DNA of 64,000 nt from Parolsenella catena (lineage in GTDB: Bacteria > Actinomycetota > Coriobacteriia > Coriobacteriales > Atopobiaceae), in the NCBI RefSeq assembly GCF_003966955.1, contig NZ_AP019367.1:682001-746000 (forward strand), read 5' to 3'. The first letter of the stretch is position 1. Every line of letters begins with the position of its first letter. A program made the position numbers and the translations under genes. Below, piece by piece: positions 43,029 through 55,325 of the stretch. Under the pieces are notes generated by a model. It worked only from the letters and a program-made list of their open reading frames with translations, did no database searches and was not told the DNA's origin.

Positions 43029-43346
43029 CTAGTCCTCGTAGTGGTTCCAGCGATCGAACAGGCCGGGGTTGCTGTGGCCGGTCCTGCGACCATCCGCGTC
43101 GTAGTGGTTGACGGCCCCGAACAGGCCGGGGCGTGAGCTGCCCGTCTTGTGGCCGTGGTCGTCGTAGTGGTTGTAGGTGCCGAACAATCCAGGCCTGCTC
43201 GTGCCGGTGCGATGCCCCTGGGCATCGTAGTCCACCATTGAGCCAAACAGCCCCGGCCGGCTCACACCCACGCGATGGCCGTGCTCGTCATAGTGAACGA
43301 CGCTGCCGAACATGCCCTGCCTGCTATAGCCCTGCCGAGAGCCCAT
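43029..43346 (-). CDS. Small protein of 21-residue tandem repeats
   Basis: The 105-residue protein is almost entirely repeats of a 21-residue unit with core HYD..GHR.G.SRPGLFG: about five units in which aromatic, Gly and Arg positions are fixed and two or three others vary. The DNA shows the matching 63-bp periodicity. AAAGGAGG just before the ATG at 43346 shows that translation is intended. There is no signal peptide or membrane helix. I do not recognise a function; the pattern suggests a beta-hairpin repeat, perhaps a binding or structural protein. Confidence 0.7.
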   Translation of the reverse strand: MGSRQGYSRQGMFGSVVHYDEHGHRVGVSRPGLFGSMVDYDAQGHRTGTSRPGLFGTYNHYDDHGHKTGSSRPGLFGAVNHYDADGRRTGHSNPGLFDRWNHYED

Positions 43347-43429
43347 GCTGGCCTCCTTTGCGATGCGGACCGATGCCCGTTTGCGCAAGTGTAGGGGAGA
43401 TTGCGGACAATAACATTTGTCTGCAGCAC

Positions 43430-44104
43430 TCAGAAAAACGTGTGCTTCCGCTGCTTCTTAAGGAATCCCTTGTTGAAGTCTCGCCAAGATCCAAAGAAGA
43501 TTCTTTCGGCGCTCGCCTGCTCGTTGTTGTCGTATTTGAGTGCAGCAAGTTCGATTCCACAGACGAGGTCGGCAACTTGCTGGAGCTTGTAATCGCTGGG
43601 CTCGCCGTTACGATACGTGATGACCTGTTTGCCAAGCGCATACTCAAAACCCGAATGAAGAACGCGAGTTACGTTGCCCTGACCGTTGTCGTAGTAGATT
43701 TTTATCTGGTCATAAGACTGGAAGAAGGCGAGATTGTCGAACAAGAAGTTCACTAAGTCCTTCTTCATCCGAGCGAATAGCTTTTCGTCGTCGCCAAGCT
43801 GCCTCTTCTCGTAGGAGAAGGTTCGGTAGCTGTAGGGAGCTTTGTTCGCGAATGTGCTGAAGCTGGTCAGGAGCTTCTTGCGAGTATCTACTGACAGATT
43901 GGCGTAGGCCTCTCCACCACGCATAAGAGGGTTAAGGTGAAAGGGTATGTCGCTCAGTCCTCTATTGGCAAGCGTCTCTATATAGGTGGAGATAAGCGGC
44001 GCGAGCTTCCTGCTCTGGTCGTGGAACACGAGGGTAAGCAGGTAATACTTCGAGTCTGGCCCACTGTTTCCGGACTCATCTATAAAGACGGACAGCTCGG
44101 CCAC
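43430..44104 (-). CDS. DUF3800 domain protein
   Basis: The 224-residue protein starts LSVFIDESGNSGPDSKYYLL, the hallmark of DUF3800, a family with an RNase H-like fold. Asp in FIDESG and the later acidic positions (YYDNGQG about 148, DLVCGIELAALKYDN about 188) could form a metal site. DUF3800 proteins are frequent near restriction systems and mobile DNA, and a nuclease role is suspected but unproven. The start is GTG. The gene lies directly behind a terminator-like hairpin (44121-44148). Confidence 0.75.
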   Translation of the reverse strand: MAELSVFIDESGNSGPDSKYYLLTLVFHDQSRKLAPLISTYIETLANRGLSDIPFHLNPLMRGGEAYANLSVDTRKKLLTSFSTFANKAPYSYRTFSYEKRQLGDDEKLFARMKKDLVNFLFDNLAFFQSYDQIKIYYDNGQGNVTRVLHSGFEYALGKQVITYRNGEPSDYKLQQVADLVCGIELAALKYDNNEQASAERIFFGSWRDFNKGFLKKQRKHTFF

Positions 44105-44120
44105 GGGTCGCCCTCTCGAT

Positions 44121-44148
44121 ATAAAAAATGCCGGGGGGATCCCCCGGC
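44121..44148 (-). terminator. Terminator or attenuator in front of the DUF3800 gene
   Basis: On the minus strand an 8-bp stem (44130-44137 with 44141-44148, arm GCCGGGGG) is followed by ATTTTTTATAT. The T-run ends only about 17 bases before the DUF3800 start codon, leaving no room for another promoter. A minus-strand -10-like TATATA with AT-rich surroundings lies upstream at about 44186-44200. Transcripts must pass this hairpin to reach the gene. Confidence 0.7.
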
Positions 44149-44223
44149 CCTTGTTTGCCCCCTCTTGCGAGGCGACTGATATTTATATACCACAGAATGC
44201 AGGTTTTGATGCGTCCATGCGGC

Positions 44224-44529
44224 TTAATTCTGCTCACTGCAAGCATGGCGGGGCGTGGAAGCTACGCCGATGGACTGGTCGAGTGTATCCGACTGCTCCT
44301 TATTAGTAAGAGCGGGCAGGATATAGACGTTCTCACGGTCGACGGCGATTTGCGTGGGTTCGTTGTGAAGGGCGTTTACGGTGCCCAGACACTTCGAGAA
44401 GGGCGTCAGGTCGGGGACCTTGGCTTCTGCGAGCTTTGCCGTGAGACGCTCGGAGAGATCGTTGTTGAGTCGGTCGAGCCCCTTTCCCGCACCCTCGAGC
44501 GCCTCATCGATGAGCGTCTTGTCTCCCAC
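44224..44529 (-). pseudogene. Unrecognised short or partial coding sequence
   Basis: The frame has protein-like composition (KTLIDEALEGAGKGLDRLNN, then DLSERLTAKLAEAKVPDLTP) with balanced charge and a helical look, but no ribosome site precedes any start. The GTG at 44529 is the best of poor choices, and the frame stays open to 44667 with unlikely sequence. This suggests the 3' remnant of a gene whose 5' part was lost. No family is recognised. It lies between the GIY-YIG gene and the DUF3800 attenuator on the same strand. Confidence 0.35.
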
Positions 44530-44683
44530 GGGTGTGGCGGCAACTTGTGGCCGGCTTCGGGCGATGGAGCGAGGTACATATGGGACGCTGGCACGGTGAG
44601 AACGTGGCGCGGAAGGGTGCCAAACCGGTAGTGCCAACCGCGGCTGGCCATGCGGGAAGGGGTCCAAGGAGTGGTCTTTTCGG

Positions 44684-45364
44684 CTATTTCTCGCCCTTCT
44701 GACGGTACTTGTCGATGAAGGAGCCGTCTTCGGCTCTCCATGTCTTCCAACCGTTGTTGGCGCGGCCGAGCACGACCCAGGAGGCCGTGGACGGGGCCCT
44801 GCACGTGACGTCCTCCTGGAGAATGTTGCCGGAGATCCTCGCGGTCTTCCTCGGCTCGGGAAGCCACACCCCCTCCTTCGAGGGGAGGCACTCGGCCCCC
44901 GCCTTCACGGTGAAGTCCCCGCCCCTGGCGACCATCGTCGCCCTGGCGGTCCCCTCCTTGGTCTTCTTCTCCATGTGATAGGTGCCGTCGGGGATGCGCG
45001 ACCAGTCGTCCTTCACGCGGCGCTCCTCGGTGGCCTGGTCGAACGAGTCCTCCTTGGACTCCTGCTCGGGGTAGACCTGCCTGCCCTCGAGCGAGGAGAG
45101 CAGCTGGATCACGAGGTCAACGTCGAGGGCGAAGAGCTCGGAGTTGGGCACGCACGACTTGGAGAAAATCTCGTCGAGCAGGGCCTCCTTCTCGTCGTAG
45201 TCCTCTACCTCGATGGCGAAGCGCCTCTTGAGGCCGACTACGTTGAAGTAGCCGTTCCTCTCAAGGTTGTACATGCGCTGCTCGAAGTTCGAGCTGCCCG
45301 TCTTGCCGATTTTCACGAGCCCCGGCACGACCGTCGTCATGACGTAGATGATTCCCCTGGGCAC
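44684..45364 (-). CDS. GIY-YIG (T5orf172-like) nuclease with DUF4357 domain
   Basis: The 226-residue protein has an N-terminal GIY-YIG fold of the T5orf172/MUG113 type: GIIYVMTTVVPGLVKIGKTG (about 4-23), then Arg in FEQRMYNLER and Glu in the KEALLDEIF helix. The C-terminal ~85 residues (from SRIPDGTYHM) match DUF4357: variable core, then WVVLGRANNGWKTWRAEDG. DUF4357 domains occur on many defence nucleases. The start is GTG at 45364 with GGAGG correctly placed. Target and trigger are unknown. Confidence 0.75.
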   Translation of the reverse strand: MPRGIIYVMTTVVPGLVKIGKTGSSNFEQRMYNLERNGYFNVVGLKRRFAIEVEDYDEKEALLDEIFSKSCVPNSELFALDVDLVIQLLSSLEGRQVYPEQESKEDSFDQATEERRVKDDWSRIPDGTYHMEKKTKEGTARATMVARGGDFTVKAGAECLPSKEGVWLPEPRKTARISGNILQEDVTCRAPSTASWVVLGRANNGWKTWRAEDGSFIDKYRQKGEK

Positions 45365-45437
45365 ATCGTCCTCCTCGCGCTTACTGTTCTTGGGATCCGA
45401 TTATCGCACCGTGGGGCCTGGATCATTTGCTTCTCCT

Positions 45438-46424
45438 CTACGCCGGCCACCAGATGCGGGTGAGCGGCAGGATCGAGCGGGTGTCGTCGTCTGCCCTGTC
45501 GTAGACCTCGACGTAGTGGCGCACGAACGCGTCCAGGTCGAGCAGACGCACTGGGACGTTGGCGCGGTCGGCCTCGTAGCGGGCCTCCTTGGTGAAGCCT
45601 CCCGTGGAGACGTAGAGCCCGCGGTCGCCCGCGCGCAGCCCGCCTATGAACGAGCGGACCGCCGGCGCGCCCATGGCGCCCTTGCGGTGCTTGACCTCGG
45701 CCACGATGCGCGGGCTCTCCAGTCCCAGCGCGTCGGGCGACGCCACGACGTCGCGGCCTCCGTCGGGGCCCTTGGGCATGACGCGGGCGCAGTACCCCAT
45801 GGCTCTGAGGAGCCCCGCCACCAGGCGCTCCATGTCCTCCCAGTCGAGCTGGCCCACGCGGTCCTTTATGAGCTCGATGCCGTTGTCGTAGGTGGCCGCG
45901 AGCGACTCCTCGTCGCTGGCGGCGCCGTCCTCTGGCGTCGCCGCCTCGTACGCGGGCCGCCCGCCCGAGGCGGACTCTAGGTCGGCCATGACCGCGTCGG
46001 ACACGGAGAAGATGGTCTGGATGCCCCCGAGGGAGTTCCTCGACTCGGGCGCGAGCGCGTCGCGAGGGGCGGTCCTGCCCCACCTGACGTGGCGGGTGTA
46101 GGTGACGGCATCCGGCTCGTCGGCGGCGACGCATGGCCCCGAGACCTCGCCCATGTGGTAGAGGCGCTCGGCCGGGTCGTACATGACGACCGTGGAGCCC
46201 TGCGCCATGGAGTGGGCGAAGCGGTAGACCTGGCCGACGTTGGCCGCGACCCTCTGCTTGCTCTCCGAGGGGTGGGCCGACGCGTAGGCCTCCCGGATCT
46301 GCTCGCGGCCCATGGCGGCGATGTCGGCGCCGCCGAAGTCCCAGCCTATGCCTATGACGCCGCGGGCGAGCCAGTCTGCCGCGTACGCCCCGCCGCGCCC
46401 TGCGCGGATCATCCATGCGCCCAT
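45438..46424 (-). CDS. Mrr-type restriction endonuclease
   Basis: The 328-residue protein has a C-terminal Mrr_cat PD-(D/E)xK domain. LDWEDMERLVAGLLRAMGYC is followed by the catalytic GPDGGRDVVASPDALGLESP, IVAEVKHR (E.K) and GLYVSTGGFTKEA. Mrr-like enzymes cut modified DNA. The N-terminal ~130 residues (MIRAGRGGAYAADWLARGVI, GIGWDFGG, YDPAERLYHMGEVSG) look like a PUA/EVE-type domain that would read a modified base; that part is inference. The ATG at 46424 follows AAGGCAGG. It is divergent from the type I operon. Confidence 0.8.
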   Translation of the reverse strand: MGAWMIRAGRGGAYAADWLARGVIGIGWDFGGADIAAMGREQIREAYASAHPSESKQRVAANVGQVYRFAHSMAQGSTVVMYDPAERLYHMGEVSGPCVAADEPDAVTYTRHVRWGRTAPRDALAPESRNSLGGIQTIFSVSDAVMADLESASGGRPAYEAATPEDGAASDEESLAATYDNGIELIKDRVGQLDWEDMERLVAGLLRAMGYCARVMPKGPDGGRDVVASPDALGLESPRIVAEVKHRKGAMGAPAVRSFIGGLRAGDRGLYVSTGGFTKEARYEADRANVPVRLLDLDAFVRHYVEVYDRADDDTRSILPLTRIWWPA

Positions 46425-46608
46425 GGGATACCTGCCTTCCATGCTGTGTACGCTCGCATTATCGGCTGTGGGCTTGAAAAACGGGCGGCTCAAACGGAAT
46501 CTCAAGCCTCCGCTCATGTCACGCCATCCGAATTCCAAGCCCTGATTGTGCGTTTAGGGCACATGATAGACTGCTAAACAGTGAAGGAAACCAATGATCG
46601 CCTTCGGA

Positions 46609-46633
46609 ACAGCAACGATTACAGCGTTGCTGT
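46609..46633 (+). promoter_or_regulatory. Leader hairpin of the type I RM operon
   Basis: ACAGCAACG (46609-46617) pairs with CGTTGCTGT (46625-46633) around a 7-base loop, followed by CTTCGTCTTTCT and then the AAGGAG ribosome site of hsdM. The pyrimidine-rich tail makes an attenuator possible. The gap 46425-46657 between the divergent mrr and hsdM genes should also hold both promoters; TAGACT at about 46567 is a candidate -10. Confidence 0.35.
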
Positions 46634-46657
46634 CTTCGTCTTTCTAAGGAGCGTCCT

Positions 46658-48271
46658 ATGGCTCGCAAAGCCGTCAAAAAGGACAAAGAATTATCTCTCG
46701 AACAAGCTCTGTGGAACTGCCGTGTCGCGCTTCGTGGCGTGGGCAGCATGGAGAAGAACAGGGACGCCGTAATCAGCCTCGTGTTTCTCAAGTTCGCTGG
46801 CGACAAGTTCGAGACCAGACGCCAGGAGCTCCTCGAGCAGTATGGGGACATCCCAGTGTTTCTCGAGAAGCCGTCATTCTACAATGCCGCAAATGTCTTC
46901 TACCTTCCGGAGGAGGCTCGCTGGTCCTACATCCTTGACCACGCCGCTTCAAATGGCATTGCCGTCATAATCGACACTGCGATGAGTGAGGCCGAGAGGG
47001 CAAACCCCTCGCTGAAGGGCGCCTTGCCCCTCGGCCTCTTCTCTACGCTGGGTGCCTCTGCGACGTCTATCAAAACTTTGATAGACGCTATCGCGCAAAT
47101 CAGTGAGAAGCGTTTCCACGAGCAAGATCTTATCGGAAGGGTCTACGAGTACTTTCTCCAGACGTTCGCCGTTGGCAGTTCAAAGGAAGACGGTGAGTTC
47201 TACACGCCGGCCTGCGTGGTTGAGCTTATCGCTGAACTCATCGAGCCTTATGAGGGCGTAGTCTACGACCCGTGTTGTGGATCTGGCGGCATGTTCGTGC
47301 AATCGCACAAGTTCGTGGAGCGTCACCATGGCAACAGCAGTGCAATTTCGGTTGTTGGACAGGAGTCCAATCCCGATACATGGCGGCTGTGCAAGATGAA
47401 CCTCGCGATTCGCGGTATATCGAACAACCTTGGGGAGAGGGCAGTCTCGACTTTTACGATGGACCAACATCCTGACAAGAAAGTCGACTTCATCATGGCA
47501 AACCCGCCGTTCAACCTCAAGAACTGGCGCGGGGAGGACGAACTCACTAAGGATCCACGCTGGACTGGCTATCCAGTGCCTCCTGTGTCCAATGCGAACT
47601 ACGCATGGATATTGCACATGCTCTCGAAACTCGACGTAAACCATGGTGTCGCCGGATTTCTCCTCGCCAACGGAGCGCTCAACGCGGATGGCGACGAAGG
47701 AGAGATTAGGCAGAGAATCCTGGAGAACGACAAAGTCGAGGCCATCATCGTTCTACCGCGCGACATGTTCTACACGACTGATATCTCCGTGACCTTGTGG
47801 ATTCTGAATATGAACAAGGGCGCTTGCGAGCAGGGTGGCCGTCATCTGCGCGACCGCCGTGGCGAGGTGTTGTTCGTTGATCTGCGCACGTGGGATGAGA
47901 ACATCGAGAAGTATACGTACGATAAGGGCAAGAACAAAAAGAAGACGGTATTGACCACGGAGCAGATCTCCCGCGTCAAGTCCATTTTTGAAGACTGGCG
48001 CTGCGTCGACGGTGGCTATGAGGACGTTCCCGAGTTGTGCAAGTCCGTTCGCGTCAAAAGCGACGACCCCGAGGAACTCACCATCGAGAGTCGCGGGTAC
48101 TCACTTGCGCCGAGCAAGTACATCGAATTTGTGGACCACGACTTGGACATCAATTACGAGAAGGAAATGGGACGTATCCAGGATGAGATGAAGCAATTGC
48201 TAACAACCGAGAAGAAGTCCCAGGCCATGCTTGCAGCTGCGTTTGAGGGTATCGGCTATGGGATTGAATAA
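46658..48271 (+). CDS. hsdM: Type I restriction-modification methyltransferase subunit
   Basis: HsdM methylates adenine at N6 as part of the type I complex. The 537-residue protein has an N-terminal helical domain (ALWNCRVALRGVGSMEKNRD). SAM motif I is VVYDPCCGSGGMFVQ (about 206-220), and the catalytic motif IV is MANPPFNLKNW (Asn about 282). EFYTPACVVELIAELI (about 186) is the conserved block before motif I. Its stop overlaps hsdS by 14 bases. Codon use is more AT-tolerant than in the flanking core genes, in keeping with acquisition. Confidence 0.95.
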   Translation: MARKAVKKDKELSLEQALWNCRVALRGVGSMEKNRDAVISLVFLKFAGDKFETRRQELLEQYGDIPVFLEKPSFYNAANVFYLPEEARWSYILDHAASNGIAVIIDTAMSEAERANPSLKGALPLGLFSTLGASATSIKTLIDAIAQISEKRFHEQDLIGRVYEYFLQTFAVGSSKEDGEFYTPACVVELIAELIEPYEGVVYDPCCGSGGMFVQSHKFVERHHGNSSAISVVGQESNPDTWRLCKMNLAIRGISNNLGERAVSTFTMDQHPDKKVDFIMANPPFNLKNWRGEDELTKDPRWTGYPVPPVSNANYAWILHMLSKLDVNHGVAGFLLANGALNADGDEGEIRQRILENDKVEAIIVLPRDMFYTTDISVTLWILNMNKGACEQGGRHLRDRRGEVLFVDLRTWDENIEKYTYDKGKNKKKTVLTTEQISRVKSIFEDWRCVDGGYEDVPELCKSVRVKSDDPEELTIESRGYSLAPSKYIEFVDHDLDINYEKEMGRIQDEMKQLLTTEKKSQAMLAAAFEGIGYGIE

Positions 48272-49385
48272 AGTAAAACTTGGGGAGCTTATTGCTCGCT
48301 CTGATAAAAGAAACGTCGAGAACAGATATAGCGTTGGCTCTGTCCGTGGCCTTTCTGTTGAAAAGGTATTTATTCCGACGAAGGCGGACATGAGAGGTGT
48401 CTCGCTGAAACCCTACAAATTGGTTGAGCCCGATTGGTTCGCATACGTAACGATTACCTCGCGTAATAGCGACAAGCTTACGATTGCTCACAATACGTCG
48501 GGAAGCAGCTATATTGTCTCCTCTTCTTATGAGGTGTTCTACGTCCAGGATTCCAGTCGTTTGGATTCAGCCTACCTATTCATGTTGTTCAATCGTGCCG
48601 AATTCGATAGATATGCTCGTTTTAATTCTTGGGGGAGTGCGCGCGAGGCATTTTCATGGAAGGATCTTTGCGACACCGAAATCGAATTGCCGCCAATCGA
48701 GATTCAGCGAAAATACGTTGCCGTCTATGAGGCGATGCTGGCCAACCAGCGGGCTTACGAGAAGGGACTCGACGACCTAAAGCTGGCGTGTGATGCGTTT
48801 ATCGAAAGGCTAATGAGCGAGCTTCCTCATGAAGCTATCGCTCCTTATATAAGCCGCAAAGCAGACAGGAATAGGGACCGAGAGCAAGAGCTTGATAGGG
48901 TTCTGGGGCTTAGTACTAAAAAAGAATTCAGGGTTCCTCAGAGTCGTGTCAACAAGAAAGAACTTGGGAATTATAAGGTGGTCGAACCTGGGGATATAGC
49001 TTATGTTCCAACGACGGACACTTGGAAGGTTCTGGCTTTTGCAGTAAACAACCAAAATACCGCCATTGTCGTCTCTCCGATATACGAGGTCTTTTCAGTC
49101 GACAAGATGAAGCTACTCCCCGAATATCTAGGGGCTTTCTTGCGCAGGAGCGAATTCGATCGGTATGCGCGTTTCTCGTCATGGGGGAGTGCCCGAGAAA
49201 ATTTTACTTTTGAGGAGATGAGAGACATCCGAATTCCAATACCAGAAATTGGGATTCAAGAGGTTGTGGTCAATCTGTCAAATGCAGTCCGTGAAAGAAG
49301 GATGATTTGTACTTGGCTCAAAAACCAGCTCAAATTAATCTGTCCAATTCTCGTTAGAGGTGCAATGCAGGAGGCTATGAACTAG
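48258..49385 (+). CDS. hsdS: Type I restriction-modification specificity subunit
   Basis: HsdS recognises the bipartite DNA target. The 375-residue protein has two target-recognition domains, each ending in a conserved helical stretch. The ends repeat: EFDRYARFNSWGSAREAFSW (about 115-134) and EFDRYARFSSWGSARENFTF (about 305-324), each followed by E/D-I-P-E-I-Q helices. The start (ATG 48258) is inside the hsdM end. This half is distinctly AT-rich, as usual for hsdS. The stop overlaps the next gene by one base (TAGTG). Confidence 0.9.
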   Translation: MGLNKVKLGELIARSDKRNVENRYSVGSVRGLSVEKVFIPTKADMRGVSLKPYKLVEPDWFAYVTITSRNSDKLTIAHNTSGSSYIVSSSYEVFYVQDSSRLDSAYLFMLFNRAEFDRYARFNSWGSAREAFSWKDLCDTEIELPPIEIQRKYVAVYEAMLANQRAYEKGLDDLKLACDAFIERLMSELPHEAIAPYISRKADRNRDREQELDRVLGLSTKKEFRVPQSRVNKKELGNYKVVEPGDIAYVPTTDTWKVLAFAVNNQNTAIVVSPIYEVFSVDKMKLLPEYLGAFLRRSEFDRYARFSSWGSARENFTFEEMRDIRIPIPEIGIQEVVVNLSNAVRERRMICTWLKNQLKLICPILVRGAMQEAMN

Positions 49386-50296
49386 TGAAGAGGCGTCTCT
49401 TTTCTCAACGTTACGATGCCTTGGACCGCATCAGTGAAACTGACCTTGGCGATGGACTTACCGATAATGTAACGCTCGAAGTCAAAAGGCGCCTTGCTGA
49501 TGTGATGCTTGACTTTTGCGAACCTCTCCGTGTCAAGTCAAGTCGATATGACAATACCACTTACGAGACCGATGCGCTGTCCCTTGCAATCGAAGACTTG
49601 AATGACACTATTGGCTATAACTTATTCAGCCTCGGTTATATGACATATAGTTATGACGAAGCAGCTGTCCTAACAAACGTTTTTACACCCCACCTCTTCG
49701 ATATCATTGAGCTTCAATACGATGAGCTTTCCGATGACGTAGAAAACGGAAAAGAAGGATTCCGCAAGGAAATCAATCGTGTTTTCCAGGAGCATGATTG
49801 CCCTTGGTTATTTACTGATGGACGTCTGGTCAAGGTCGATGCCAAGCAATTCGAACTGGACTTGAAACTCAAGGCAATCGAAAGAATGCAGGAGCTTAGA
49901 GACGCGAATCCCCTCTACCAGGGGGCCTACGACGAGCTGAGGAAGGCCGTCGACTTCCTGGGACGAGGAGACTATGCTGAAGCTGTGATTAATGCTGGGA
50001 AAAGCTACGAGAGCGTCCTCAAGGTTATCTGCGGACCAGGAGCTGAGACGGAGTCGGCCAACGGCCTTATAAAACGGCTGCTTGAGTCCGACAAGTTATC
50101 CCTTCCAGAGAGCCTCAAGCCCGAGGCTTTTCAGAATAGCGTTCTTCTGTCTTTCCCTATCATTCGTAACAAGGTGGCGGCACACGGTTCCGGTGCGACT
50201 GAATGCGAGATCAGCGCCCCGATGGCCAACCTTGCCGTCAACCTGGCGTGCGCTCTCGATACCTATCTCATCCAAGAAGCGACTGACATAGAGTAG
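49385..50296 (+). CDS. HEPN/Abi-C-like protein embedded in the RM operon
   Basis: The 303-residue protein has a helical N-terminal domain of unknown type (about 1-170) and a C-terminal helical domain resembling the abortive-infection C-terminus. YAEAVINAGKSYESVLKVIC (about 198-217) is followed at about 261-267 by RNKVAAH, an R-x5-H motif of the HEPN kind. HEPN domains with R-x4-6-H are often RNases in toxin and abortive-infection systems. It resembles proteins annotated as STM4504/CBY_0614 family. Its place between hsdS and hsdR, with one-base overlap, means it is made together with the RM system. Confidence 0.65.
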   Translation: MKRRLFSQRYDALDRISETDLGDGLTDNVTLEVKRRLADVMLDFCEPLRVKSSRYDNTTYETDALSLAIEDLNDTIGYNLFSLGYMTYSYDEAAVLTNVFTPHLFDIIELQYDELSDDVENGKEGFRKEINRVFQEHDCPWLFTDGRLVKVDAKQFELDLKLKAIERMQELRDANPLYQGAYDELRKAVDFLGRGDYAEAVINAGKSYESVLKVICGPGAETESANGLIKRLLESDKLSLPESLKPEAFQNSVLLSFPIIRNKVAAHGSGATECEISAPMANLAVNLACALDTYLIQEATDIE

Positions 50297-50302
50297 GCAA
50301 GA

Positions 50303-53300
50303 ATGAAATCGTCGGACAGCAAATTCGAAAACAGCAAATTCACTGAAGGTGAGCTTGAGCAGGCAATCATCAAGCTGTTCCAGCAGCAGGACGCCAATGG
50401 CGTGCGTTGGAGCTATGCTAACGGCGAGTTGCTGCACCGTCGCTTCGATGAGCCACTCATGGAGGACCGGTTGAAGTCGAGCCTTCGACGCCGCTATGCC
50501 AATATCGACCTGACCGAGGGCGAGCTCCAGACGCTCGTGGGCGAGCTCAAGCGTGTCCCCTCGACCCCGCTCTACGACGGGTGCCGACGAGTGTTCTGGC
50601 TCATCAACGAGGGGTACACACTTTCTCGAGAGGACACAAACAAGTCTGCCGTTCATATCGAGTACATCGACTTCGACGACATCGCCAACAACGACTTCCT
50701 CATCGTGAACCAATACACGGTCGAGGACGTGCGCACCCGCCGCCCCGACCTTTTGTGCTTCGTGAACGGCATACCGCTCGCCATCCTCGAATTCAAGACC
50801 GCCATAGAGGAGGATAAGACCATCCACGACGCGTGGAAGCAAATCGCCATTCGCTACGCGCGTGACATCCCAAGTCTGCTCAAGTACTGCTGCATCGCCG
50901 CGGTCAGCGACGGCGCCAACAGCAAGATTGGCACCGTGTTCACTCCGTACTCGTATTTTTCGCCTGGAACAAGGCCAATGACCTCGACAAGGTGTCGAAC
51001 GGCATCAATTCCCTTTACACCATGGTCGAGGGCGCGTTCGCGCCCGCCCGCTTCCTGGCAATCGTTCGCGACTTCGTCTTCTTCCCAGACGACAGCAAGA
51101 ACTCCACTGAGATAGTCTGCCGCTACCCGCAGTACTTCGCAGCGACGAAGATGCTCGACAACATCTGCGAGCACCTGCGTCCCGAGGGCGACGGCAAGGG
51201 CGGTACGTACTTTGGCGCCACTGGCTGCGGCAAGACATACACCATGCTCTTCCTCTCGCGTCTGATGATGCTTCGACGCAGCGAGGAGCTGGGCAATCCT
51301 ACCATCGTGCTTATTGTTGACCGCGAGGACCTGGATAACCAGACAAGCGAGTTGTTTGTGACCGCGAAGCGGTTCCTGCACGACGAGAATGTGCGCAGCA
51401 TCGAGACGCGCGGCGACTTGGCGGAGACGCTGCGTGGGCGCGAATCGGGTGGCGTTTACATCACCACTATCCAGAAGTTCAGCGAGCAGATGGGTCTTCT
51501 TTCCAACCGCTGCAACATCATTTGCATTTCCGACGAGGCGCACCGCACTCAGACGGGCGCGGGCTCTAAGCTTATGATCACCGAAGAGGGTGCCTTCACC
51601 CGCTTCGGCTTCGCTAAATACCTGCGCGACGGATTCCCGAACGCGACGTACGTCGGATTCACGGGTACGCCCATCGACGAGACGATTGCCGTGTTCGGCC
51701 CAGTTGTGGACCGCTACACCATGAAAGAGTCGAGCGACGACGGGATTACCGTGCGTATCGCTTATGAGCCTAGGTTGGCGCGAGTGCTCCTTTCCGATGA
51801 CGAAGCGAAGAAGATCAAGGAGTACTACGACCGCTGCGCCGAAGAGGGCTCAACCGAGGATGCCATCAAGGAGAGCCAACGCGCCATGAGCTCGATGGAG
51901 GTGCTGCTACGCGATCCCGACCGCCTGAAGAAGCTCGCAGCCGACATGGTCGAGCACTACGAACGCCTCTGTGGGGAGAAACCAGGCGTGGTACAGAAGG
52001 CCATGATAGTGTGCTCGAATCGCCCCCATGCCTTCGACCTGCTCAACGCCATCCTGGCCATACGACCCGAATGGGGCGTTGCGAAGAAGGCCGAGAACGA
52101 GAGCAGGCTATTGCCTGAGCGACTGGAGGAGCTTGAGTCGCTGCCCAAGATTAACATCGTGGCCACGCGTGGCAAGGACGATCCGAGGGACCTCTTTGAC
52201 GCCTGCGGCAACAAGGAATGGCGCAAGAAGCTCGACAAGCAGTTTAAGAACAACGATTCAAACTTCAAGATCGCCGTCGTCTGCGACATGTGGATTACCG
52301 GCTTCGACGTTCCCTCGCTTGCCGTCATGTATATCGACAAGCCGTTGCAACGCCACACGTTGGTGCAGACCATCAGCCGCGTAAACCGCGTGTTCGAAGG
52401 CAAAGACCAGGGCCTAGTGGTCGATTACTTCGGCATCAAAGAGAACATGATGAAGGCGCTCAAGACCTACGGCGGTGACGATTCCGGTGCTATCGACGAT
52501 TTGACCGTTGCCCTGGGCATCTTCCGTAACCATCTGGCCATGATTGACGACCTCATGACTAATTTCGATTCGAGTGCCTTCCATATGGGTAAACCGCTCG
52601 AGCGCCTTGGATGCCTGAATAGGGCCGCCGAGTACGTTCAGCTCTCGAAGGAATTTCAGACGCGATTCATGGGGCTTACGCGCATTCTGAAGTCTGCATA
52701 CCAAATCTGCTTTCCCTCGGGAGAACTATCCGACCACGAGACCGCGATGTCTCAGTTCTACATGGCGATTCGTTCCATCGTCTATAAGCAGACCAAGGGC
52801 GATGCGCCCGACGCCGAGATGATGAACGAGGTTGTGGAGGACATGGTGCGGCGGGCAATCAGCTGCACGGGCGTTGAGAGCGTGATTGACGTTGACGGAC
52901 CCGAGGATCTCTTCGGCGAAGATGCAATCGCTGAGCTTAATGCCATGAAAATGCCTATTACCAAGTTCAATGCCCTCATGAAGCTGGTCAAGAGGGCCAT
53001 TAGAGATTACGGACGTACCAACAGGGTTAAGGCCCTCGATTTTGATGAGCGCCTGAGAAGGGTCGTCACTGAGTACAACTCTCGCGACAACCTGACCTTC
53101 GCCAGCGAGGTCGTGTCTGACTTTGTTGACAGCCTGTCTGACCAGCTCGTTGACATTCTCCGGGATCTAAAAGACGACGAACGATCCTTCGAGAAGATAG
53201 GGATCACCTACGAGGAAAAGGCATTCTACGACATCTTGGTTAAGGTTCGCGATGACCATGGATTTGTCTTTGAGGATGAGAAGTGTGTGGCGCTCGCCAA

Positions 53301-53496
53301 GGAAATCTCAAAGCTTGTGAGTGACAAAGCACAATACGCTGACTGGTCGACACGCGATGACATCAAAAGCCAGCTGAACATGGATCTTACCGTGATGCTC
53401 TACAAGAATGGATACCCACCCGAGTGGGATGAGGAGGTCTTCGAGAAGGTTATGGACCAGGCGGAGAACTTCAAGAAGAACGATACGTTTAAATGA
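50303..53496 (+). pseudogene. hsdR: Type I restriction endonuclease subunit, frameshifted
   Basis: HsdR is the translocase-nuclease of type I systems. The first frame (from ATG 50303) holds the PD-(D/E)xK nuclease: RRPDLLCFVNGIPLAILEFK with Asp about 149 and E.K about 166-168. It leaves the correct frame at the five-T run 50956-50960 and stops at 51115. The continuing frame picks up FAWNKANDLDKVS and runs to 53496 with Walker A GATGCGKTYTM and DEAH-box SDEAHR. One extra T would restore TAT TTT TTC GCC (Tyr-Phe-Phe-Ala) and a full protein of about 1063 residues. It may be a recent loss, a phase-variable site or a sequence error. Confidence 0.9.
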
Positions 53497-53606
53497 ACGA
53501 CTCAGACGCTGTGTGGCTTCGTATTATTCCAAGGCAAAAATTGTCGGAGCAGCAGTTCAATAGGCTTGAACTTCTTGAATATGCTTCGAAACAATCACTT
53601 TTTTAG
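53493..53606 (+). CDS. Small 37-codon ORF coupled to hsdR
   Basis: An ATG at 53493 overlaps the hsdR stop (ATGA) and opens a 37-codon frame ending TAG at 53604-53606. The product reads MNDSDAVWLRIIPRQKLSEQ and then QFNRLELLEYASKQSLF, an amphipathic helix-like peptide without signal sequence. Its stop is 11 bases before the next gene's ATG. The overlap at one end and tight spacing at the other suggest a real coupled gene, but no homologue is recognised. Confidence 0.45.
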   Translation: MNDSDAVWLRIIPRQKLSEQQFNRLELLEYASKQSLF

Positions 53607-53617
53607 TGAGGCTGCTG

Positions 53618-55165
53618 ATGATCGTAGTAGATGGTCGAACCGATAAGGAGAAGTTGTTCGAACTCTTGAACTCTGGCGGCGAGTGCTCCGAGCTCGATTT
53701 CAAGGAGACACTCGACTTCTCGAAGAAGATTGACGAGCTCCACTTTGTCAAGGATGCCGTCTCGATGTGTAACCGCTATCCGGGTGGCTATATCGTCATC
53801 GGCGCCGACGATGATGGTAAGCCGTCTGAGATTAGCGAGCAAACGAATTGGTCGCAGTTCGACGGTGCGGTGCTGACGGACAAGATAAGGAAGTATGTTG
53901 ACGCTCCACTTGCTGCCATCTCCCAATTGCATGACGTGGACGGGCATACATATTGCCTCATTTGCCTTCTCAGCCCGGAGGATGGCCTTCCCGTCCCCTT
54001 CGCAAAGCTTGGTCAAACGGCCGATGGAAAGGGGCGACAGTCCGTTGTTTTCCGGGAAGGAGAGTTCAGCCGACGCGACGGGGCGCAAAACCGGTGCATT
54101 GAGTATGCGCAGTGGGCTGAGATGCTAGGCCAGCACGATGGCCGCGTGAGGAAAGACGAGAGTAAGCGCATGGACTTGCTCGTCGATAAGATTATCGCGG
54201 TCTTGGGCGAAAGGGGCAAAACTCCCCCTCTTGTCTACGGAATGGACGAGCACGCTCTCGTCGAGGCCCTCGCAATCTGCTTTGAGCAGAAAGAGGACGA
54301 GAAGCTCGCTCGCTTCATCGGGCAAGTCGCCTCTCAGTTCCAAAGCGAATCCGATGCCCTCAACGAGCTCGTGGGAATCGGGGCATACGCCGTCGCCTAC
54401 TACAACGATGCGATTTTCATCAAAGTCGTCGATGCCCTCTATGACTGTTATGCCTCCATTGATGAATCAAAAGCGGATCGTTCAACAAGGCATCTGAAGG
54501 TGGCCGTCGCCTGCTACGAACTGGGGGCGCAGCTTGTTCGCCTAAAGAGGTGGGACTTGATCGCCCCGTTCGTCAACAGGCAGTCTCCGGCGAATCCGTA
54601 CTCGCTTTACGCCTCCTGGATAAGGGACTGCCAGGTTGAGTCCGTCAGGGCAGGCCTATTTAAAGACGCCGACTCCGGAATGATGATATCTGTCGCGCTG
54701 GAGAACGCTACCAAGCATCCCATCGTCGCCCCCGACTGCGGGCTGGATTCGGAGAATGGGGATCTAGGGCGGGACCGTTACCTTGACCTGCTGTGCTCGT
54801 TCGACTTCCTCTACTGCCTCTGCGTCTTTGTCTCGGGCGTGGGAACCGGGCTTGCCTACCCCGCCTGCTGTGCCTATTCGGAGAATCGCATCGCCGGCGT
54901 GGTATCCCGTTTCTTTGGCAATGACCAGGGACCGCGCAGGGAACTGCTTCCCGATGCCGATGACGATAAGGTCGCCTTGGGTCTACGGGCTCTCTATAAA
55001 CTGGCGGGCGAGGAGGCCCTGAGGAATGACGGCCGGTTCTACTGGGGCTTTGACCCGACGCGTGCCCTAAGTCATTTCCTGAACGAGCACCCTGAAAAGC
55101 CTGGCGAGCAACAGCCTGACATATTCGCATACAACAACGCCGAGAAGCGCGAGGGACATAGCTAG
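53618..55165 (+). CDS. AlbA_2 (Schlafen-like) domain protein with unknown C-terminus
   Basis: The 515-residue protein has an N-terminal AlbA_2/Schlafen domain (about 5-140): ECSELDFKETLDFSKKIDEL, VKDAVSMCNRYPGGYIVIGA DDDG (split for length). This is the nucleic-acid-binding fold found in Schlafen RNases and many defence proteins. The remaining ~370 residues are mostly helical and unrecognised. The frame is open from GTG 53606, but GTGAGG before the ATG at 53618 makes the shorter form likelier. It is the last gene of the type I operon, probably an accessory effector. Confidence 0.7.
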   Translation: MIVVDGRTDKEKLFELLNSGGECSELDFKETLDFSKKIDELHFVKDAVSMCNRYPGGYIVIGADDDGKPSEISEQTNWSQFDGAVLTDKIRKYVDAPLAAISQLHDVDGHTYCLICLLSPEDGLPVPFAKLGQTADGKGRQSVVFREGEFSRRDGAQNRCIEYAQWAEMLGQHDGRVRKDESKRMDLLVDKIIAVLGERGKTPPLVYGMDEHALVEALAICFEQKEDEKLARFIGQVASQFQSESDALNELVGIGAYAVAYYNDAIFIKVVDALYDCYASIDESKADRSTRHLKVAVACYELGAQLVRLKRWDLIAPFVNRQSPANPYSLYASWIRDCQVESVRAGLFKDADSGMMISVALENATKHPIVAPDCGLDSENGDLGRDRYLDLLCSFDFLYCLCVFVSGVGTGLAYPACCAYSENRIAGVVSRFFGNDQGPRRELLPDADDDKVALGLRALYKLAGEEALRNDGRFYWGFDPTRALSHFLNEHPEKPGEQQPDIFAYNNAEKREGHS

Positions 55166-55201
55166 CTGTTCGGTTCACCGCCCAATCCATACTGACCGAT
55201 G

Positions 55202-55207
55202 TATAAT
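55202..55207 (+). promoter_or_regulatory. Probable promoter (-10) of the PNPOx-like gene
   Basis: TATAAT at 55202-55207 is a perfect -10 hexamer about 119 bases before the ATG. No good -35 is visible at 16-18 bp. The 120-base leader (55208-55325) has no recognised riboswitch. It marks the right border of the island. Confidence 0.45.
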
Positions 55208-55325
55208 GCGCGGGCTCGCATAGCGAACTCTTTCGCCGGCAGCATTCGACGGGATAACTGTCTGCGTTATTTGAGCGCACATCTGAGGCAATGACGTGCG
55301 CAGTGCGACTTAGAGGGAAACCGGC

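Follow-up and report, generated by a model that had tools for sequence, protein, structure and literature searches.

Cutting by type I restriction-modification enzymes requires the R subunit, and the M2S complex suffices for methylation. The same division of tasks is stated for the closest described cases (PMC9465063, PMC12554148). In Mycoplasma agalactiae PG2, hsdR is truncated and type I methylation is retained (PMC9465063). Two further cases are given by Staphylococcus aureus RN4220 with HsdR W197* and JSNZ with the HsdR deletion 705-876 (PMC12554148). A candidate locus of this restriction-deficient, modification-proficient type, with hsdR disrupted and hsdM and hsdS open, is found in Parolsenella catena, where hsdM encodes N6-methylase and HsdM_N domains and hsdS target-recognition domains. 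It is situated in a stretch of 64,000 nt (contig NZ_AP019367.1, positions 682,001 to 746,000), which was analysed as a whole and is referred to as the window; coordinates apply to the window unless given as genome positions.

Frame break of hsdR and its homologues

In the assembled sequence, translation places a switch of the hsdR reading frame at a T5 run (Table 1). The nuclease domain is encoded in frame 2, with HSDR_N covering residues 13-215 of ORF 1 (Pfam, E 2.4e-34) and a stop codon at 51113-51115, while SWI2_SNF2, T1R_D3-like, and T1RH-like_C domains (Pfam) follow in frame 1. Both ORFs are called type I HsdR by PADLOC and NCBIfam, and with its nuclease and helicase domains in two frames the gene represents a broken type I member. 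In all 44 homologous loci that extend over this point, a single open frame runs through the junction. The earlier note had described a lone lesion in hsdR, with otherwise intact halves and open HsdM and HsdS, and this description holds: no further inactivating change was found in the window hsdR, and its relatives are intact.

Table 1. Features of the type I locus and its downstream genes in the window
Feature	Position	Strand	Basis and remarks
hsdM, 537 aa, open	46658..48271	+	Pfam N6_Mtase (E 1.5e-87), HsdM_N; PADLOC MTase_I
hsdS, 375 aa, open, overlaps hsdM end	48258..49385	+	PADLOC Specificity_I (E 1.3e-140); Pfam Methylase_S
AbiJ_NTD4 accessory protein, 303 aa	49385..50296	+	Pfam AbiJ_NTD4 (E 2.5e-9)
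hsdR ORF 1, nuclease domain	50303..51115	+	Translation, Pfam; genuine to ~50955, then ~53 out-of-frame residues
T5 run at frame switch	50956..50960	+	Translation, homologue comparison, coding-potential scan
hsdR second part, helicase and C-terminal domains	50961..53496	+	Pfam; frame open from 50866
37-codon ORF overlapping hsdR stop	53493..53606	+	Sequence
AlbA_2 (Schlafen-type) protein, 519 aa, open	53606..55165	+	Pfam SLFN_AlbA_2 (E 6.5e-8)

The closest relative, locus L006 of Senegalimassilia anaerobia JC110, shows 86% nucleotide identity over 3.8 kb and encodes an HsdR of 1061 aa in an open frame. Like the window, it has the gene order hsdM-hsdS-AbiJ_NTD4 type gene-hsdR, with HsdR ~94% identical in the C-half; unlike in the window, hsdR is open and another protein is encoded after it; the two loci also diverge in HsdS and in the N-terminal portion of the AbiJ-type protein. 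At the switch point, Senegalimassilia (HsdR ~94% aa identity) has TATTTCTACGCC. In codons, L006 reads TCG TAT TTC TAC GCC TGG and the window TCG TAT TTT TCG CCT GG, i.e., one substitution and one base fewer. The closest relatives have TTC TAC (Tyr-Phe-Tyr-Ala-Trp) and not TTT TTC, and a T5 or T6 run was observed at this position in none of the homologues seen. For this reason, the sixth T proposed in the earlier note stands as the smallest edit joining the frames, but not as the ancestral state. Judged from this alignment, the T run seems to have arisen through the lesion and not to have provoked it. Before the lesion, the site may have passed through a T6 stage (Tyr to Phe); Phe occurs at that residue in homologue L040. 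Searches of plasmid and viral collections yielded just more distant homologues. In Olsenella uli An733, which exact matches place with Thermophilibacter provencensis in the family of P. catena, a reverse-transcriptase-like ORF with a YVDD motif was observed close to the homologous type I locus (L007:11689-13047, minus strand).

By common experience a T5 run is too short to be hypermutable. This, together with the lack of a repeat tract in the homologues seen, stands against a phase-variable switch, by which slippage in the T run would toggle restriction, as had been suggested for this site. A short T run is indeed located at the frame switch, and on/off switching of hsdR via homopolymer slippage was proposed for M. 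agalactiae (PMC9465063), but a phase-variable T tract is not supported by relatives that lack the run, and we consider it very improbable. Programmed -1 ribosomal frameshifting at TAT TTT TCG, producing full-length HsdR next to a nuclease-only form, could draw on a P-site tRNA-Phe slipping one base back on the T run and on the downstream 100 nt, which fold better than shuffles (z -2.8). Due to the absence of a standard X XXY YYZ heptamer, the location of the strong GC hairpin ~70 nt downstream, too distant for a usual stimulator, and the occurrence of HsdR in one frame in every relative, this mechanism is rejected as barely credible. A split enzyme, whose two fragments cooperate and keep restriction, would be in line with the position of the two breaks, as each type I locus of the genome is interrupted close to the border of nuclease and helicase (see below). 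However, the nuclease fragment bears an unrelated tail of ~53 residues, no homologue seen is encoded as such a pair at this point, and the broken relatives are interrupted at other sites, so that we attach next to no weight to it.

Constraint, the second type I locus, and assembly quality

In the C-half of hsdR, nonsynonymous to synonymous changes amount to 40:108 in the window lineage and 24:70 in the L006 lineage. Pairwise dN/dS between the window hsdR and L006 is 0.054 in the C-half and 0.117 in the N-half. These values indicate that the window hsdR was constrained until recently, with constraint in its lineage not relaxed, and we infer a recent lesion.

Besides the window locus, only one further complete type I locus was found in P. 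catena. It is located outside the window (genome 1,624,878-1,631,083) and comprises HsdM2 (600 aa) and HsdS2 (420 aa), both open, and HsdR2. HsdR2 is split as well, although it is open in close relatives: HSDR_N is encoded at 1,627,950-1,628,846, and SWI2_SNF2 and T1R_D3-like domains follow in a different frame as far as 1,631,083 (L237:1880-2776 and L002:238-2574; G000:C1:1627950-1631083). Compared to L240 (94% aa identity, open) and L241, HsdR2 is one base shorter at its break, with G4 in P. catena where L240, its closest relative, has G5; constraint in HsdR2 is likewise not relaxed. Hence both R subunits found in the genome are broken, each a single time and shortly after the nuclease domain. 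Directly upstream of this second locus, a gene encoding an N6_Mtase and Methylase_S fusion is situated (L235:895-2886; G000:C1:1622317-1624308), and no nuclease domain was detected in the fusion protein.

Short homopolymers are the usual place for length miscalls, and both the window hsdR and HsdR2 are one base short at a short homopolymer. Both breaks would thus also fit an assembly or base-calling error, i.e., a truly open hsdR with an under-called run. In addition, a true T6 would be reachable from the L006 sequence by only two ordinary substitutions, and L040 has Phe at this residue. Against an error stands a frameshift census, in which 1.6 Mb of the P. catena genome was compared to 0.8 Mb of the sister species of its genus, covering 504 conserved genes (~555 kb, 185,167 aligned aa, median identity 90%). 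Apparent frame changes were observed in 8 of these genes in P. catena and were placed in over-extended starts or intergenic DNA on the basis of codon-position patterns, two being inspected; a convincing frameshift was found in none of the 504 genes relative to the sister species. Since a single clear frameshift as well as one or more nonsense changes were detected in the sister genome by the same census, it is able to see such lesions. The ~597 in-frame homopolymers of at least 5 nt in 493 conserved genes likewise argue against an error. With an error rate of 3 per 555 kb or less, at most 0.017 errors are expected per hsdR and ~3e-4 for both, which serves as a guide and not as an artefact probability, because hsdR was picked for being broken. 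An error-rich assembly is rejected by the census, and an assembly error as source of this particular break appears unlikely.

The 1.6 Mb were also scanned for coding potential without recourse to homology. A switch was called at genome position 732,956, corresponding to window position 50,956, and it ranks first among the 15 calls when each is judged by its weaker flanking score. Among the 14 other calls, six were inspected, of which five resemble ordinary gene pairs or noncoding frames and the sixth, at 492,898, gave an ambiguous picture. The same ab initio method called the frame switch of HsdR2 at 1,628,708. A naive ORF census was discarded due to shadow ORFs at 66% GC.

Surroundings of the locus and hsdR breaks in the order

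The type I locus is part of an island (~43,065-55,324). The flanking DNA is 88-93% identical between P. catena and the sister species, and at this site the latter harbours a different insert encoding another type I system, whose HsdR is 32% identical and open. The region 43065-55324 is a site of exchanged defence genes. Divergently oriented beside hsdM, a gene for an Mrr_cat nuclease and a second gene with a match to the PADLOC candidate defence family PDC-S57 are located on the minus strand (44684-46538). The AbiJ_NTD4 gene between hsdS and hsdR overlaps the hsdS stop with its start and has a counterpart at the equivalent place in L006. At the DNA level it aligns with the Senegalimassilia copy only from ~49666 onwards, its N-terminal part diverging along with HsdS as if an exchanged block spanned both.

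An AlbA_2-like gene is situated at the matching place in L007 of O. uli An733. The gap between hsdR and the AlbA_2 gene measures 109 nt in the window compared to 72 nt in L006 and 68 nt in L007; because it is much shorter in these relatives, the 37-codon ORF is probably not conserved. Given the overlapping stop and start codons, a loss of translational coupling for this ORF and the AlbA_2 gene is possible, as is a polar effect of the hsdR break on AlbA_2, a gene that has its own start codon.

Among 397 genomes of the order, two HsdR searches list ~60 and ~45 loci. An internal stop or frame change in hsdR was observed in five other genomes (G045, G179, G071, G064, and G262), and R-subunit loss is therefore familiar, at several percent of loci. 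In L209 (G071), L250 (G262), L232 (G045), and L253 (G064), frame changes occur near residues 165-186 and 401 and stops near 351 and 424. The nuclease/helicase border as a general hot spot was rejected, as these HsdRs break elsewhere. The loss of two out of two R subunits in one genome is unusual, not extraordinary.

Predicted methylation without restriction, and known systems

In our estimation it is quite likely that a recent small lesion in hsdR and the independent loss of the second R subunit, with M and S open, left a strain that methylates without type I restriction. The lesion at 50956-50960 would separate the nuclease from the helicase domain of HsdR, making a one-piece R subunit impossible, so that M2S would methylate its target and unmodified DNA would stay uncut. 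At the second locus, HsdR2 (genome 1.628 Mb) would have been lost independently through a one-base frame change. Since R is needed for cutting and M2S is enough for methylation, modification on and restriction off are predicted at both specificities. With both R subunits broken, the strain is probably type I restriction-deficient but modification-proficient. The modify-but-not-restrict state put forward in the earlier note is in fact the natural prediction from a lone hsdR lesion next to open HsdM and HsdS, and as a reading of gene sequences it is well supported. A free helicase fragment or low levels of frameshifted full-length HsdR may nevertheless be present.

Decay is expected to begin in R, because losing M or S while R is active does harm, whereas R itself can be lost without harm. 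One hsdR frameshift on its own is ordinary and well known; the noteworthy part, mildly unusual, is the double loss in a genome with hardly any other detected frameshift. Selection to keep both type I systems methylation-only, or to open the strain to foreign DNA, would account for two parallel R-subunit losses in a genome that is poor in frameshifts elsewhere, and we offer it as a tentative and rather doubtful possibility. Provided that neither R subunit is active, the strain would be open to DNA and phages at the two specificities. Such a strain might be handy for genetic work in a bacterial family for which few tools exist, and might serve as a natural experiment on whether type I methylation is retained in its own right.

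The locus resembles the hsd locus of M. agalactiae PG2, in which a small homopolymer indel has cut hsdR short and hsdM and hsdS are kept (PMC9465063). In PG2, type I methylation was observed without functional hsdR, whereas in P. catena it is predicted from sequence; furthermore, the former case comprises a long poly(A) run in an AT-rich genome, several compared strains, and a measured methylome (PMC9465063), the latter a short run in a GC-rich genome. S. aureus RN4220 and JSNZ are restriction-deficient, modification-proficient, and easily transformed, a reported phenotype (PMC12554148), while the corresponding state of P. catena is predicted from its genes. Their lesions are a nonsense mutation and an in-frame deletion, respectively (PMC12554148), in contrast to the frameshift in P. 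catena.
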